Assembly (NCBI GenBank): GCA_016792585.1
Contig: JAEULB010000100.1
Coordinates: 1-64,000 of the forward strand
Reading direction: 5' to 3'
Source of the DNA: Rhodospirillaceae bacterium
Lineage (GTDB): Bacteria > Pseudomonadota > Alphaproteobacteria > SHVZ01
DNA length: 64,000 bases
Below, piece after piece: positions 9,274-43,833 of the stretch. Position 1 is the first letter of the stretch, and each line of letters begins with the position of its first letter. The notes under the pieces are model-generated. The model did no database searches. It was not told the origin of the DNA and saw only the letters and a program-made list of their open reading frames with translations. Both the position numbers and the translations under genes were made by a program.

Positions 9274-9651
9274 ATGGCGAAGATCCTGGTCATCGACGAT
9301 GACAGGCCGACCTGCACCGTGCTGGGGCTGGTGCTGAGTGGCGCCGGTCATGAGGTCGCCCTGTTCGAGAGCGGCAAGCTGGCCATCGAGAGCGTCGACG
9401 GCGGCGCCACGTTCGATCTCGTGGTCACCGACATCCTGATGCCGGAGATGGACGGTATCGAGGTGATCAAGCGGCTCAGGGCGCATGGCGCGCCGCCGCT
9501 GATCCTAGCCGTCTCCGGCGCCACGGTGAACGCGGGCGTCGACGTGCTGAAGGCGGCGCTCAACCTCGGCGCCGAAGGGGCGCTCCGCAAGCCCTTCACC
9601 AACGAGGCCTTCCTCGCGACCATCGCCGAGATCCTCAGCCGGCGAGGCTGA
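9274..9651 (+). CDS. Single-domain response regulator (CheY-like receiver)
   Basis: The 125-aa product is a stand-alone REC domain: acidic pair IDDD at residues 7-10, phospho-acceptor Asp in VVTDILMPEMDG, the Ser switch in AVSGA and the Lys in LRKPF. There is no output domain, so it should act by protein contact or as a phosphorelay intermediate. Start ATG 9274 has a GAGGCGAAGG ribosome site. No kinase gene is adjacent; its partner is unknown. Confidence 0.9.
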   Translation: MAKILVIDDDRPTCTVLGLVLSGAGHEVALFESGKLAIESVDGGATFDLVVTDILMPEMDGIEVIKRLRAHGAPPLILAVSGATVNAGVDVLKAALNLGAEGALRKPFTNEAFLATIAEILSRRG

Positions 9652-9677
9652 TCGCCCGCCTTCGGTGTTTTGTCGCC

Positions 9678-10145
9678 ATGGACCAGGAAAAGCACACCGT
9701 CCCCCGGCGGCCGGTCTGGGCCTGGCTCACCTTCGGCGGCGGGGTCACCCTGATCGCGTTGGTCGGGGTGAGCGTCGTGGCCCTGTCGCAGCGGCCGTTC
9801 CCCGATCACTCGCCCGACCGGCGGGACCACACCGAAGTGCTGGCTCCTTCCGCGCCGGCGCCGGACGAACAGCTCGCGATCACGCCGCCCCCGCCGCCGG
9901 TCGTGCCGCCCACGACGGAAGACTCGGTACCTCCTGCCATGGGACCGCCCGGCTCGCCACCTCCGGGACCGGCGCCGTCGGGGCCGCCCGTCTGGCCGCC
10001 GACGCATCCGCCATCGGACATGCGCGGCGCCGGCGTCGGCGTGCCGGGTCCGTCCCAGGCAACCCGGCCCGCGCCGGGGCCCATCCCGCGAAGACTCGCG
10101 CCGGTTCCGTCGACGAGCGCGCCGCGCGGAGGCCGCGACGGCTGA
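9678..10145 (+). CDS. Pro-rich single-pass membrane protein, unknown function
   Basis: The 155-aa product has a short cytoplasmic N-terminus, one membrane helix (about residues 15-36, WLTFGGGVTLIALVGVSVVAL) and a low-complexity Pro/Gly/Ala-rich remainder (PPPPPVVPPTTE, PPGSPPPGPAPSGPP). This resembles periplasm-spanning linker regions such as those of TonB, but no folded C-terminal domain is present. It lies 26 bases after the receiver gene and may be co-transcribed with it. Coding status is supported by the helix and the ATG; the function is unknown. Confidence 0.6.
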   Translation: MDQEKHTVPRRPVWAWLTFGGGVTLIALVGVSVVALSQRPFPDHSPDRRDHTEVLAPSAPAPDEQLAITPPPPPVVPPTTEDSVPPAMGPPGSPPPGPAPSGPPVWPPTHPPSDMRGAGVGVPGPSQATRPAPGPIPRRLAPVPSTSAPRGGRDG

Positions 10146-10148
10146 TCC

Positions 10149-11306
10149 TCAGCCGCAGGCGCGCCGATCGGTCGGTGGAGGCTCCGCGCTCAAGGACTCC
10201 AGAAAGGCGACCAGGTCGTCGATCTCCGCATCGTCGAGCCCGAGCGGCTTCAGGATCGCCTCGCCGTCTCCGTGCAGGCGCTCGGGATCGAAGCGGGCGT
10301 AGTGGCGGACGACATCGGCGAGAGTGGCGAGGCTGCCATTGTGCATGTAGGGCGCCGACCGCGCCGCCATGCGGAGCGAGGGGACGCGGAATTCGCCGAA
10401 GTTCCGGTGCTGCGGATCGACGTGGCGGGTCGCGATCCCGTCGGCGCGCACGGGATCGTCGTTCCAGGATCCGAGCAGCGTGAGACGGCTCTCTCGCAGG
10501 GTGCGGATCCCGGAATGACGGCCGCCATCGGCGCCGCCGGCAACGAAGAACGGAATCCCGATGCTGTGGAACTCGCCGTTGGTGAAGGCGGGTCCCAAGT
10601 GGCAGAAGGCGCAGTTGCCGCGACCGACGAACAGACGCACGCCACGCTGGGCGGCGACCGGCAGCTTCGCCGCCTCGGCCTTGTCGCCGCGGGCGAGCGC
10701 ATCGCGGAAATCGTCGAACGGCGTGCGCGGGCTTGTCAGCGTTTCCTGGAACGCCGCCAGCGCCTTCGCCGCGTCGATCGCCAGCGCTTCCGCCTCCACG
10801 GCGCCCGGCTCGCGGCCGAAGGCGCGCGCATAACAGGCGGAGAGATTGCGATCGGTGCGGACCAGATCGGCGATACCGGCGGTGCTGCCGCCGATCTCGC
10901 GCGCATCCAGGATCGGACGGAGGCTCATGGACCACAGATTGTCGTGACCGCCGTCCCAGCCGAACCAGCGCCGTTGGCGGACGTCGAGCAGGCTCGGCGC
11001 GTTCCGAGGCAACGCCGTGCGGCCCATGCTCGTGGCCCGGCCGTCGCTCCATGCCTTGTCAGGGTCGTGGCAGGAGACGCAGGCGAAAGCCTTGTCGGGA
11101 GAGAGCCGGGCATCGAAGAACAGCGCACGCCCGAGCCCGATTGCATCCTGCTTTCCGGAGACGCGGTTGCTGGGGTCGGCGGCGACGGTCGGCGGCCAGG
11201 GGCCGTGACGGACGATCCGGGCGATCTCGTCGGCCGAAAAATCGAGAAGCTCGGCGCGTGGTGCGGCGGCGGCAAGCAACACGAGCAGCGCTGCGAGCCA
11301 GCGCAT
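10149..11306 (-). CDS. Di-haem cytochrome c peroxidase / MauG-family protein
   Basis: Periplasmic di-haem c enzyme that reduces peroxide or, in MauG relatives, oxidises a partner. The 385-aa protein has a signal peptide (residues 1-18) and two CxxCH haem sites, CVSCH at residues 76-80 and CAFCH near 233, followed by the C-terminal segment RVPSLRMAARSAPYMHNGS with the distal haem Met/His ligands. The ATG at 11306 shares one base with the upstream stop (TGATG). It is the last gene of a three-gene exported-protein operon. The physiological substrate cannot be read from sequence. Confidence 0.9.
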   Translation of the reverse strand: MRWLAALLVLLAAAAPRAELLDFSADEIARIVRHGPWPPTVAADPSNRVSGKQDAIGLGRALFFDARLSPDKAFACVSCHDPDKAWSDGRATSMGRTALPRNAPSLLDVRQRRWFGWDGGHDNLWSMSLRPILDAREIGGSTAGIADLVRTDRNLSACYARAFGREPGAVEAEALAIDAAKALAAFQETLTSPRTPFDDFRDALARGDKAEAAKLPVAAQRGVRLFVGRGNCAFCHLGPAFTNGEFHSIGIPFFVAGGADGGRHSGIRTLRESRLTLLGSWNDDPVRADGIATRHVDPQHRNFGEFRVPSLRMAARSAPYMHNGSLATLADVVRHYARFDPERLHGDGEAILKPLGLDDAEIDDLVAFLESLSAEPPPTDRRACG

Positions 11307-40458: not shown

Positions 40459-40485
40459 GCGCATCGGCTGCTTGAGACCAAAAGT

Positions 40486-40498
40486 GTTATAGTATAAC
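40486..40498. promoter_or_regulatory. Zur box
   Basis: GTTATA-G-TATAAC is a perfect 13-base palindrome. It matches the proteobacterial Zur operator core (GTTATAnTATAAC type). It overlaps TATAAC (40493-40498), a probable -10 with TTGAGA (40472-40477) as -35 at 15 bases. Zinc-loaded Zur bound here would block transcription of the zinc-uptake genes that follow. The Zur gene itself is not in the window. Confidence 0.85.
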
Positions 40499-40507
40499 GT
40501 CCGACAT

Positions 40508-40789
40508 ATGCGCCGTCCTGCGCTCCTCCTGTCGCTGTTGCTGATTCTGGGCCAGTTCGCGCTTGGCCTGCATCAGATCGAGCATCGCTTCGAGCCCGCC
40601 GCGCCGGATCAGGGGGCCTGTGGGCTCTGCGCGGTTGCCGACCACATGGACGGCGCCCCGGGGCAGGTCGCGGTCCTGCCGAGCGACGCCTGGGCTCTTG
40701 CAACCTTCCATCCCATCGCCGATCCGCGGCCAAACCTCGCGCGGCCGGTCGAGATCCGCGCCCGCGCTCCTCCCGTCCTCATCGTCTGA
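40508..40789 (+). CDS. Small exported DUF2946-like protein, first gene of the zinc operon
   Basis: The 93-aa product has an N-terminal hydrophobic signal or anchor (MRRPALLLSLLLILGQFALG), then HQIEHRF and a CGLC motif (ACGLCAVADHM), the His/Cys layout seen in DUF2946 proteins near metal transporters. These residues could bind zinc. There is no recognisable ribosome site, and the ATG lies about 10 bases after the probable -10, so the mRNA may be leaderless. It is under the Zur box. Confidence 0.7.
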   Translation: MRRPALLLSLLLILGQFALGLHQIEHRFEPAAPDQGACGLCAVADHMDGAPGQVAVLPSDAWALATFHPIADPRPNLARPVEIRARAPPVLIV

Positions 40790-40859
40790 CACGTCGAACC
40801 CGCTGGACGCGCCCATGAGCGGCGCATCCGTTCGTGTGCTCTCGCGATGGAGATGAGCG

Positions 40860-42164
40860 ATGACCCGTTCGTGGATGATCGGTGCTGCGGCGCTGGCCTT
40901 GATGCTGCCCGCCCCGACAATGGCCGCCACCGATGAAGAGATGCAGCAGATCAAGTCGGCGATCCGCGAGCTCGAGCAGCGACGCGCCGAAGACCAGGCG
41001 CGGATCGCCGATCTCGAGCGGCGCCTGAAACAGGCCGAGGACAAGACACAGACGGTCGCGGTCCCGCCAACCGCGCCGGCCCCGGGTACGGCCCGATCGT
41101 CGAACGGCTTCAACCCGGCGATCGGCCTGACGCTCAACGGCACCTATGGCCGGATGACCAAGGACCCCGGTGCCGCAACCGTGCCGGGCTTCGCGCTCGG
41201 AGAGGAAGCCGGCATCGGCGACCGCGGATTCTCTCTCGGTGAGTCGGAAGTGAACTTCGCGGCCAACATCGACCACCTGCTCTATGGCGAGCTGACGGTG
41301 GCGCTGTCGCGCGAGAACGAGGTCGAGATCGAGGAAGCCTTCATCCAGACGACGGCGCTGCCCTGGGGCTTCACCGCCAAGGCCGGACGCTTCTTTTCCG
41401 GTATCGGCTACCTCAACGACCAGCACGCCCATGTCTGGGATTTCGTCGACCCGCCGCTGCCCTACCGCGCGATGCTCGGCAACCAGTATGGCGACGACGG
41501 GTTGCAGGTGAAGTGGCTGGCCCCGACCGATCGCTTCATCGAGCTGGGGATCGAGGGCTTCCGCGGCGACCGTTTCCCGGCGACTTCGACCAATCGTGGC
41601 AATGGCGCCTTCGCCTCGTACCTGCATGTCGGAGGCGACCTCGGCCTCAGCCACAGCTGGCTCGCCGGCCTGTCGTGGCTGCACGCGGAAGCCGAGGATC
41701 GCGCGACCGGGGCGGACCTCTTCACCGGCCGCAGCAACCTCGGGATCGCCAGCCTGGTGTGGAAATGGGCGCCGGGCGGCAACCCCACCCAGCAGAACCT
41801 CAAGCTCCAGGCCGAGTACTTCCATCGGCGCGAGAACGGCCTCTTCAACGGCCTCGACTATCGCGGCCGGCAGAGCGGCTGGTATGCGCAGGCGGTCTAC
41901 CAGTTCATGCCGCAATGGAAAGTCGGGGCGCGCTACGACCAGGTGAGCGCCGGCGACCTCGATCCCGCGACCTTTTCCGGATCGACGCTCGACAATCTCG
42001 GCATGACGTCGCGGCGGTGGAGCGCATTGGGCGAATACGGCACCAGCGAGTTCGGCCGCTTCCGGCTCCAGTACAATCGCGATCACGCGGCACCGCAGGT
42101 CAACCACGAACTCTTCCTCAACTACGTCGTCTCGCTGGGCGCCCATGGCGCCCACAAGTTCTGA
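40860..42164 (+). CDS. Outer-membrane porin-like protein of the zinc operon
   Basis: The 434-aa product has a signal peptide (ending near MAATDEE), a short coiled coil (about residues 27-62, MQQIKSAIRELEQRRAEDQ) and a beta-barrel-like remainder of alternating amphipathic strands ending with a C-terminal aromatic (GAHGAHKF). NDQHAHVWDFVDPPLPYRA and HAEAEDRATG are His-containing. The N-terminal coiled coil with a C-terminal barrel resembles OprP/OprO-type porins. Position between a Zur box and ZnuA/ZnuB-like genes implies outer-membrane entry of zinc or a zinc complex. It has GGAGATGAG before its ATG. Confidence 0.8.
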   Translation: MTRSWMIGAAALALMLPAPTMAATDEEMQQIKSAIRELEQRRAEDQARIADLERRLKQAEDKTQTVAVPPTAPAPGTARSSNGFNPAIGLTLNGTYGRMTKDPGAATVPGFALGEEAGIGDRGFSLGESEVNFAANIDHLLYGELTVALSRENEVEIEEAFIQTTALPWGFTAKAGRFFSGIGYLNDQHAHVWDFVDPPLPYRAMLGNQYGDDGLQVKWLAPTDRFIELGIEGFRGDRFPATSTNRGNGAFASYLHVGGDLGLSHSWLAGLSWLHAEAEDRATGADLFTGRSNLGIASLVWKWAPGGNPTQQNLKLQAEYFHRRENGLFNGLDYRGRQSGWYAQAVYQFMPQWKVGARYDQVSAGDLDPATFSGSTLDNLGMTSRRWSALGEYGTSEFGRFRLQYNRDHAAPQVNHELFLNYVVSLGAHGAHKF

Positions 42165-42175
42165 GGGAGGCGGCG

Positions 42176-43072
42176 ATGGTCAGATTGCTCGCGGTTCTGC
42201 TCGTTCTCTTCGCCGTGCATCGCGCCGAGGCCGCGATCAACGTCTTCGCCTGCGAGCCCGAATGGGGGGCGCTGGCGGAGGAGATCGGCGGCGAAGCGGT
42301 ATCGGTCTACGTCGCCACGTCGGCGAAGCAGGACCCGCACCAGCTCCAGGCTCGGCCTAGCCTGATCGCCAAGGCTCGGAGCGCCGATCTCGTCGTCTGT
42401 ACAGGTGCCGAGCTGGAGATCGGCTGGATGCCGGTGATCCTGCGCCAGGCCGCCAACGGCAAGATCCAGCCCGGCACGCCGGGCTACTTCGAGGCGGCGG
42501 CGCAGGTGCGGCTCAAGGACGTGCCGACGGTGCTGGACCGCTCGCAGGGTGATGTGCACGCCCAGGGCAATCCGCACATCCAGACCGACCCGCGCACCCT
42601 CGTGCCGGTTGCCGCCGCGCTCGCCGAACGACTGATGCAGATCGATCCGGGCAATGCCGCCCGATACCGCGAGCGGCACCAGGCGTTCACGCAGCGCTGG
42701 AGCCAGGCGCTGCAACGCTGGCAGATGGAGGCGGCGTCGCTCAAGGGGACCAAGGTCGCAGTCCAGCATAAGAACTGGACCTACCTGATCGACTGGCTTG
42801 GCCTCGTCGAGGTGACGACGCTGGAGCCGAAGCCGGGCGTTCCGCCGAGCAGCGGACACTTGGCCGAGGTGCTGGCAAAGGTCACCGCTGATCCGGTGCG
42901 GCTGGTGATCCGCGCGGCCTACGAAGACGGGCGCCCATCGGTGTGGCTCGCCGAGCGCGCGAGGGTGCCGGCGGTCGAGCTGCCCTTCACCGTGGGCGGC
43001 AACGACCAGGCGACCGACCTGACGCGGCTCTACGACGACACGCTCCGCCGTCTCAAGGACGCCGTCCGATGA
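42176..43072 (+). CDS. Zinc ABC transporter binding protein (ZnuA-like)
   Basis: Periplasmic metal receptor of the cluster 9 family. The 298-aa protein has a signal peptide (MVRLLAVLLVLFAVHRAEA). Metal-ligand candidates are His in AKQDPHQLQARPS, His in QGNPHIQTDP and His in VAVQHKNWTYLIDWLG. The usual fourth ligand region reads RAAYEDGRPSVWLAERARV instead of the standard Glu/Asp pair. The His-rich loop of classical ZnuA is absent. GGGAGG precedes ATG 42176. Its stop overlaps the permease start in ATGA. Confidence 0.87.
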   Translation: MVRLLAVLLVLFAVHRAEAAINVFACEPEWGALAEEIGGEAVSVYVATSAKQDPHQLQARPSLIAKARSADLVVCTGAELEIGWMPVILRQAANGKIQPGTPGYFEAAAQVRLKDVPTVLDRSQGDVHAQGNPHIQTDPRTLVPVAAALAERLMQIDPGNAARYRERHQAFTQRWSQALQRWQMEAASLKGTKVAVQHKNWTYLIDWLGLVEVTTLEPKPGVPPSSGHLAEVLAKVTADPVRLVIRAAYEDGRPSVWLAERARVPAVELPFTVGGNDQATDLTRLYDDTLRRLKDAVR

Positions 43073-43833
43073 GCGTCGACATCCTGCTGCCGGCGTTCCT
43101 TGCAGGATTGCTGGTGCTCGCCACGCACGTGCCGCTGGGCCAGCAGGTGCTGGCACGCGGCATCGTGTTCATCGACCTCGCGATCGCGCAGGTCGCGGGG
43201 CTCGGCGTCGTCGCCGCCGATGTCGTGCTCGGTTGGGAGCCGCAGGGCTGGCGAGCGCAGATCGCGGCATCCGCCGCCGCCCTCGCCGGCGCGCTGCTGC
43301 TGACTTGGACGGAGAAGCGCTGGATCCAGGTGCAGGAGGCGCTGATCGGCGTGCTGTTCGTCGCCGCGGCCAGCGCCGAGATCCTGCTGCTTGCGCACGA
43401 TCCGCATGGCGGTGAGCATCTGAAGGACCTGCTGGTCGGCCAGATCCTCTGGGTCTCGCCGACCGACCTGCTGCCGGTGGCCCTGCTTTACGGCGCGGTG
43501 CTGACGCTGTGGTTCCGGCTCGGCGAGCGTCTCGGACGGCTCGGCTTCTACCTGCTGTTCGCCGCGACGGTGACGGCCTCGGTGCAGCTGGTCGGAATCT
43601 ATCTCGTCTTCGGCAGCCTGATCGTGCCGGCGCTGGCGGCGCGCGCTTTCGCCGATCGCCATCGCCTGGTCGCGGGGTATGCCACCGGCATCCTCGGCTA
43701 TGCCGGCGGCTTGGTCCTGTCGGCGCTTTCCGATCTGCCGACCGGACCGGCGATTGCTTGTGTGTTGGCCGCGATGATGCCCCCAATCGCTGCGATCGGC
43801 GGCTGGCGGCGGGCCGTCAGCGGCAACGCTTGA
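43069..43833 (+). CDS. Zinc ABC transporter permease (ZnuB-like)
   Basis: The 254-aa inner-membrane protein of the ABC-3 metal permease family has about eight helices (MSVDILLPAFLAGLLVLATHVPLG; IVFIDLAIAQVAGLGVVAADVVL; QLVGIYLVFGSLIVPALAARA). It is coupled to the ZnuA-like gene by ATGA. No ATP-binding subunit gene follows: the next genes are on the other strand. The ATPase must come from elsewhere. Its last 17 bases overlap the convergent neighbour. Confidence 0.87.
   Translation: MSVDILLPAFLAGLLVLATHVPLGQQVLARGIVFIDLAIAQVAGLGVVAADVVLGWEPQGWRAQIAASAAALAGALLLTWTEKRWIQVQEALIGVLFVAAASAEILLLAHDPHGGEHLKDLLVGQILWVSPTDLLPVALLYGAVLTLWFRLGERLGRLGFYLLFAATVTASVQLVGIYLVFGSLIVPALAARAFADRHRLVAGYATGILGYAGGLVLSALSDLPTGPAIACVLAAMMPPIAAIGGWRRAVSGNA

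Follow-up and report, generated by a model that had tools for sequence, protein, structure and literature searches.

A candidate zinc-responsive arrest peptide ahead of an undescribed porin family in a Zur-linked znuA-znuB operon

Arrest of the ribosome on the SecM nascent chain uncovers the Shine-Dalgarno sequence of the gene downstream. SecM, ApdA and ApdP carry a C-terminal RAPP or related motif and monitor protein export without a metal site (PMC7897499, PMC10951233). Ribosomes stop at RAPP because peptide-bond formation is blocked once RAP occupies the P-site (PMC10951233); proteomes strongly avoid RAPP-like motifs, which are enriched in arrest peptides (PMC12992588). Two DUF2946 proteins act as metal-sensing nascent chains. 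CruR (BP2923), encoded by an upstream open reading frame (uORF) of Bordetella pertussis, senses copper by a CXXC motif located 49 residues before its RAPP; it is encoded first in the operon of a TonB-dependent receptor, where Rho termination exerts control, and is a precedent for arrest of the metal-free chain as the ON state of an uptake operon (PMC9426467). CutF of Rhodobacter capsulatus is an exported protein with metal and proline motifs that serves copper detoxification; there, metal promotes stalling and a stem-loop sequesters the downstream Shine-Dalgarno sequence (PMC9973294). Not all DUF2946 uORFs are thought to be copper-specific, as nickel/cobalt contexts and CzcI have been named (PMC9973294), and Caulobacter possesses DUF2946 genes in Zur-affected operons, including the czrCBA-zntA efflux operon (PMC4176598). 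For zinc, the accessible text of the reports on ZnuD and OprD describes Zur-regulated outer-membrane entry, TonB-dependent in the case of ZnuD, with no uORF ahead of either gene (PMC2895646, PMC6103462), and the survey of RAPP motifs makes no mention of zinc in its main text (PMC12992588). Our literature search found no zinc porin, no zinc-linked CruR or uORF, and no uORF before znu genes. On the literature searched, metal-sensing DUF2946 uORFs are known for copper, and the zinc-uptake case proposed here would be new.

The window analyzed in this study is a stretch of 64,000 nucleotides from a Rhodospirillaceae bacterium, in which a Zur box, a uORF, a porin-like gene, znuA and znuB follow each other in this order (Table 1). 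Both open reading frames reported in the initial annotation were recovered at exactly the same coordinates, with znuA and znuB close behind. No ATPase gene lies beside the znuB of the window, and a family search of the genome revealed no clear ZnuC among 188 ABC ATPase matches. A sigma-70 promoter scan gave no match, a terminator scan found nothing in the intergenic region between uORF and porin gene, and Rfam had no match at the locus. We regard it as fairly probable, jointly with the arrest switch proposed below, that uORF, porin gene, znuA and znuB form one operon for zinc uptake, controlled at two levels.

Table 1 Coordinates of the features of the predicted zinc-uptake locus in the window
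Feature	Position	Strand	Remarks
Zur box	40484-40500	.	perfect palindromic core GTTATAGTATAAC at 40486-40498
uORF	40508-40789	+	93 aa, DUF2946-type, signal-peptide-like N-terminus (judged by eye)
CGLC codons (C38-C41)	40619-40630	+	proposed metal site
RAPP codons (R86-P89)	40763-40774	+	proposed arrest site; first Pro codon (40769-40771) in the P-site
Anti-Shine-Dalgarno arm	40771-40785	+	final codons of the uORF; would be covered by a ribosome stalled at RAPP
Intergenic region uORF/porin	40790-40859	+	70 nt
Porin Shine-Dalgarno region	40847-40857	+	GGAG at 40849-40852; predicted to pair with uORF 3' end
Porin-like outer-membrane protein	40860-42164	+	434 aa, predicted coiled coil at residues 25-63 and 16-strand barrel
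Invariant H189-x-H191	41424-41432	+	strand 5-6 loop, where constriction loop L3 would lie
Invariant H429 and H432	42144-42155	+	C-terminal GAHGAHKF (HxxH)
znuA	42176-43072	+	zinc ABC transporter binding protein, PF01297, E 1e-39
znuB	43072-43833	+	ABC-3 permease, PF00950, E 5.8e-22

Like CruR, the window uORF is the small first ORF of a metal-uptake operon, with a signal-peptide-like N-terminus, a CXXC motif (CGLC), a C-terminal RAPP and an outer-membrane protein gene downstream, and its spacing of 48 residues between the first cysteine and the arginine of RAPP compares with 49 in CruR. RAPP, which was absent from the initial description of the protein, ends four residues before the stop codon (C-terminus RARAPPVLIV), and the two histidines of an LHQIEH stretch precede CGLC. 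The protein, initially annotated as DUF2946-like, matches the Pfam model PF11162 weakly, its score (16.2 bits) lying under the gathering cut-off of 23.7; 17 of 33 zinc-locus uORFs match this model at E values up to 1, the best being 2.4e-5. The window uORF probably works like the DUF2946/CruR type, to which it is assigned by motif only. It differs from CruR in the porin-znuAB operon that it heads, the Zur box, the locus-specific anti-Shine-Dalgarno sequence and the Pfam score below cut-off. The genome also encodes a copper-type DUF2946-like uORF with CQIC and RAPPILI (L080:3080-3433, minus strand), directly followed by an ORF with CopC and CopD domains (L080:963-3023, minus strand).

The porin was detected in 41 of 385 genomes of the window's class and, at a stricter cut-off, in 40 of 398 genomes of the phylum, and in none of six other genomes of the same genus and family. 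A single-sequence search for related loci returned one relative, a Rhodospirillaceae metagenome-assembled genome; other named relatives were from Vibrio campbellii and Sulfurovum mangrovi. The regions around approximately 60 porin relatives were fetched. Contrary to the possibility, raised in the initial annotation, that homologues lie mainly outside zinc operons, the porin gene directly precedes a znuA homologue in 52 of these loci (window counted), and znuB is nearly always next. One locus (L057) has two tandem ZnuA-like ORFs between porin gene and znuB. More distant and mostly longer porin relatives (L063-L070) include several with His-rich C-termini (e.g., PDHAGHGH) and several with a ZnuA-like gene upstream, not downstream.

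Upstream DNA was readable at 50 porin-znuA loci; at 40 of them, a uORF ending in RAPP, RGPP, RGSP or RDPP lies just before the porin gene, and ten have none. The 40 comprise 38 patterned uORFs, one recovered via pattern scan (L034) and one at a contig edge with only the RAPP end left (L032). In the 38 patterned loci the arrest motif is RAPP (29), RGPP (4), RGSP (4) or RDPP (1), and the first cysteine lies 45-50 residues before the arginine (48-50 in 33 loci). The uORF pattern occurred seven times elsewhere in 668 kb, one match being the L034 uORF, and once in the reversed sequence. The metal motif is CxxC in 21 of the 38 loci; the remaining 17 have a single cysteine, mostly with an upstream HxH, and with one exception belong to the window's own class. 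The window uORF lacks the HxH typical of most same-class members. The codons of the arrest motif vary synonymously among loci, and pS exceeded pN in all ten uORF pairs tested, and sequence change is usually quicker in the uORF than in the porin gene; in an alignment of 33 uORFs, only M1, C38, R86 and P89 are invariant. In one locus (L060, as fetched, plus strand) a further small ORF with CTLC and RAPP follows znuB (9514-9915), and behind it lies a secreted, probably barrel-forming ORF (9976-11082), so that this cluster possibly contains a second arrest-peptide uORF. The cassette is also found in Campylobacterota, on a plasmid of Sulfurovum mangrovi (L133:3312-3668), where the small ORF has CQVC, ends in HAPP and shows a spacing of 73 residues, and its motif is either degenerate or differently built.

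The pairing between uORF and porin Shine-Dalgarno sequence was analyzed in the 34 loci whose uORF and porin gene lie no more than 160 nt apart, using porin start codons chosen by rule; related loci were treated as independent, and the p values of these tests are therefore optimistic. The porin Shine-Dalgarno sequence paired with the uORF at 0.51, compared to 0.29 for synonymous recodings (p = 6e-9), and the pairing partners peaked 0 to +18 nt from the codon expected in the P-site of a RAP|P arrest, which is the stretch that an arrested ribosome would cover. The duplex between this footprint and the Shine-Dalgarno sequence was more stable with a locus's own partner than with swapped partners (−12.9 versus −8.5 kcal/mol; permutation p = 5e-5, the lowest value that the test can give), whereas flanking windows at −42, −21 and +21 showed no difference and that at −63 a difference of about 1 kcal/mol. 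The complementary sequences differ by locus, for example CTCTCCTAG with CTAGGAGA and ATTCTTAT with ATAAGAA, which indicates that complementarity has been maintained through changes of the letters. Little or no footprint pairing was found in at least five of the 34 loci (L037, L040, L116, L117 and L118). The window's own duplex ranks fifth of 34, and its overall fold is unexceptional (z = −1.46). Most of the anti-Shine-Dalgarno arm is found in the codons that follow RAPP; the proline codons of RAPP themselves were rejected as anti-Shine-Dalgarno sequence, showing no significant excess over synonymous recoding (0.08 versus 0.04, p = 0.42). In 23 classical DUF2946 loci, whose motif spacing is 47-51, the same footprint excess was observed (−12.8 versus −9.5), with a smaller excess in the two preceding windows. 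The arrest site is predicted to be placed such that a stalled ribosome would disrupt the sequestration of the Shine-Dalgarno sequence, as in attenuators of the SecM type. Based on the RAPP or RGPP near the stop codon, the fixed cysteine spacing, the near-total divergence otherwise and the anti-Shine-Dalgarno sequence under the arrested ribosome, the small ORF is most likely a cis-acting arrest-peptide uORF and kin of the copper sensor CruR.

The Zur box of the initial annotation was confirmed ahead of the small ORF. The perfect core had two matches in the window (one palindrome read on both strands) compared to 0.01 expected, and GTTATAGTATAAC is the only perfect Zur site in the 5.09 Mb genome. 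It resembles experimentally supported Zur sites of Caulobacter, such as GATGTTATATCATAACAAT (PMC4176598), and at another place the genome encodes a Zur homologue, a member of the Fur family that has Zur-like cysteines. By this predicted box at its promoter, the porin operon is a candidate member of the Zur regulon. At L078:2852-5513 of the same genome, genes for Zur, another ZnuA and a His-rich CobW-type GTPase are clustered, and no gene for a permease or an ATPase was recognised next to them. Since only about ten bases separate the Zur core from the uORF ATG in the window (40498-40508) and these contain no Shine-Dalgarno sequence, the uORF mRNA may be leaderless. Where a Zur box precedes the uORF in other loci, it starts 45-91 bases upstream of the uORF start. 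Across 48 loci (at most one mismatch, within 250 nt of the first gene), a Zur box precedes the first gene in 8 of 12 uORF-less loci but in only 6 of 36 uORF loci (Fisher p = 0.002; p = 0.00014 under a wider pattern), a comparison that treats related loci as independent and in which other operator sequences of some lineages may escape the pattern. By chance, 0.2 to 0.8 of the 48 loci would be expected to have a box. The window belongs to the minority (6 of 36) with both box and uORF. Vibrio campbellii (L132) and two further loci (L125, L127) lack the uORF, and one or two Zur boxes immediately precede their porin gene. The simplest reading of this distribution is that Zur and the uORF respond to the same signal, zinc, as if one control could replace the other.

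The structure model of the porin-like protein (pLDDT 84) shows the coiled coil and beta-barrel proposed initially, the latter with 16 strands. The nearest solved folds were OprP, chitoporin and porins of the OmpT/OmpC type (Foldseek against OprP: E 1e-12, TM about 0.55), and in the model strands 5 and 6 are joined by a long loop, at the place where 16-strand porins have the constriction loop L3 folded inside the barrel. While the predicted fold is that of OprP/OprO and OmpC/OmpF-type porins, the protein shares only 12-13% identity and no family model with them and differs in its invariant HxH at the L3 position, its C-terminal HxxH and its N-terminal coiled coil. The porin alignment comprised 25 members; in a count over 45 sequences, E130, E158, H189, H191, H429 and H432 were invariant in all 45. 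H189 and H191 lie in the long loop at the L3 position and may line the pore. No Pfam or NCBIfam family covers the barrel, and kinship with FapF was rejected (NF058560 scored 25 bits versus 700, matching N-terminal residues 10-108 only). The initial proposal of a dedicated, TonB-independent pore, through which zinc would pass, gains support from the predicted porin fold, the linkage to znuA and the four invariant histidines. As the relatives are almost always located directly before znuA-znuB, our results support a non-TonB, porin-fold protein dedicated to zinc uptake, like ZnuD and OprD in its predicted Zur control and unlike ZnuD in its predicted independence of TonB (PMC2895646, PMC6103462). 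On the literature searched, the locus joins an undescribed porin family to a putative metal-sensing uORF of a known kind, in a new, zinc-linked form.

We propose the following mechanism, in which the uORF would itself serve as the sensor: when zinc runs short, its nascent chain would stall the ribosome translating it and thereby uncover the porin start. At plentiful zinc, Zur would block transcription of the operon. Without zinc at the CxxC/His site, which would be located near the tunnel exit, approximately 48 residues back from RAPP, the nascent chain would hold the ribosome arrested at RAPP; the arrested ribosome would cover the anti-Shine-Dalgarno arm, the porin start would be exposed and the porin would be made, a dedicated pore letting zinc reach ZnuA. 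Binding of the metal would relieve the arrest, the ribosome would leave, and the arm would pair again with the Shine-Dalgarno sequence and switch the porin off, to which Rho termination may add. In an uptake operon that Zur controls, one would expect the metal-free chain to arrest and the metal to release it, which is the sign of CruR. The sequences themselves show the gene order, the conserved motifs with their spacing, the locus-specific pairing at the footprint and the Zur box; the explanation built on them, with arrest, zinc as ligand, polarity and zinc passage through the pore taken together, we consider to be reasonably probable. With slightly less assurance, we favour the broader view that a zinc-responsive arrest peptide, able to stand in for Zur at many loci, uncovers the ribosome-binding site of a zinc porin, and that DUF2946 uORFs generally carry an anti-Shine-Dalgarno sequence at the arrest footprint.

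The same switch could respond to another signal, either copper, as in CruR, or the status of Sec export, as in SecM. CGLC with RAPP is the arrangement of CruR, the copper-type uORF before CopC/CopD occurs in the same genome, and the N-termini of the uORFs resemble signal peptides. However, the downstream genes are porin-znuA(-znuB) in 52 loci, Zur boxes accompany these loci and tend to take the place of the uORF, and most same-class members have HxH and one cysteine in place of CxxC; we therefore rate a non-zinc signal as unlikely. Argued from this context, the ligand is most likely zinc, the CGLC motif being one that copper sensors share and that cannot tell the two metals apart. The sign of the response could also be reversed, with metal promoting the arrest and turning the porin on. 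CutF, a member of the same family with its stem-loop over the downstream Shine-Dalgarno sequence, works in this manner for copper (PMC9973294), but in detoxification, and the opposite sign is expected for an uptake operon such as that of the window. An operon that imports zinc, the Zur box at six uORF loci including the window, where induction by zinc would oppose Zur, and the other sign of CruR, which likewise heads an uptake operon, all make such a polarity quite improbable.

Control by Rho termination only, as published for CruR, with the Shine-Dalgarno pairing being incidental, would agree with the excess of C over G at uORF 3' ends (0.10 versus −0.016 in the porin, p = 5e-11), which is compatible with Rho sites, expected of rut sites and also found in cruR. 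Yet this excess follows from a Pro/Ala-rich peptide as well, and termination by Rho would not give rise to pairing that is specific to each locus at the arrest footprint, so that we give this explanation little credence. The initial annotation had regarded the DUF2946-like protein as a periplasmic carrier that receives zinc from the porin. Its signal-peptide-like N-terminus and Cys/His residues would suit such a carrier, possibly as a second role after release; on the other hand, only four residues are invariant among the 33 aligned members, RAPP-like motifs are avoided by proteomes and enriched in arrest peptides (PMC12992588), the RNA pairing at the footprint requires no protein function, and CutF is degraded after export (PMC9973294). 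As the main role of the small protein we thus rejected zinc carriage, which we deem highly improbable, in favour of the cis-acting arrest peptide whose signatures the uORF bears.

If the proposed switch exists, the growing peptide would itself control zinc uptake at the level of translation, beside or in place of Zur, and metal-sensing arrest peptides would extend from copper to zinc. The DUF2946 family would gain a common RNA-level mechanism, testable by compensatory mutations. Moreover, a histidine-marked, TonB-independent porin family would be identified for the entry of zinc across the outer membrane, a route that is poorly known outside TonB-dependent receptors.
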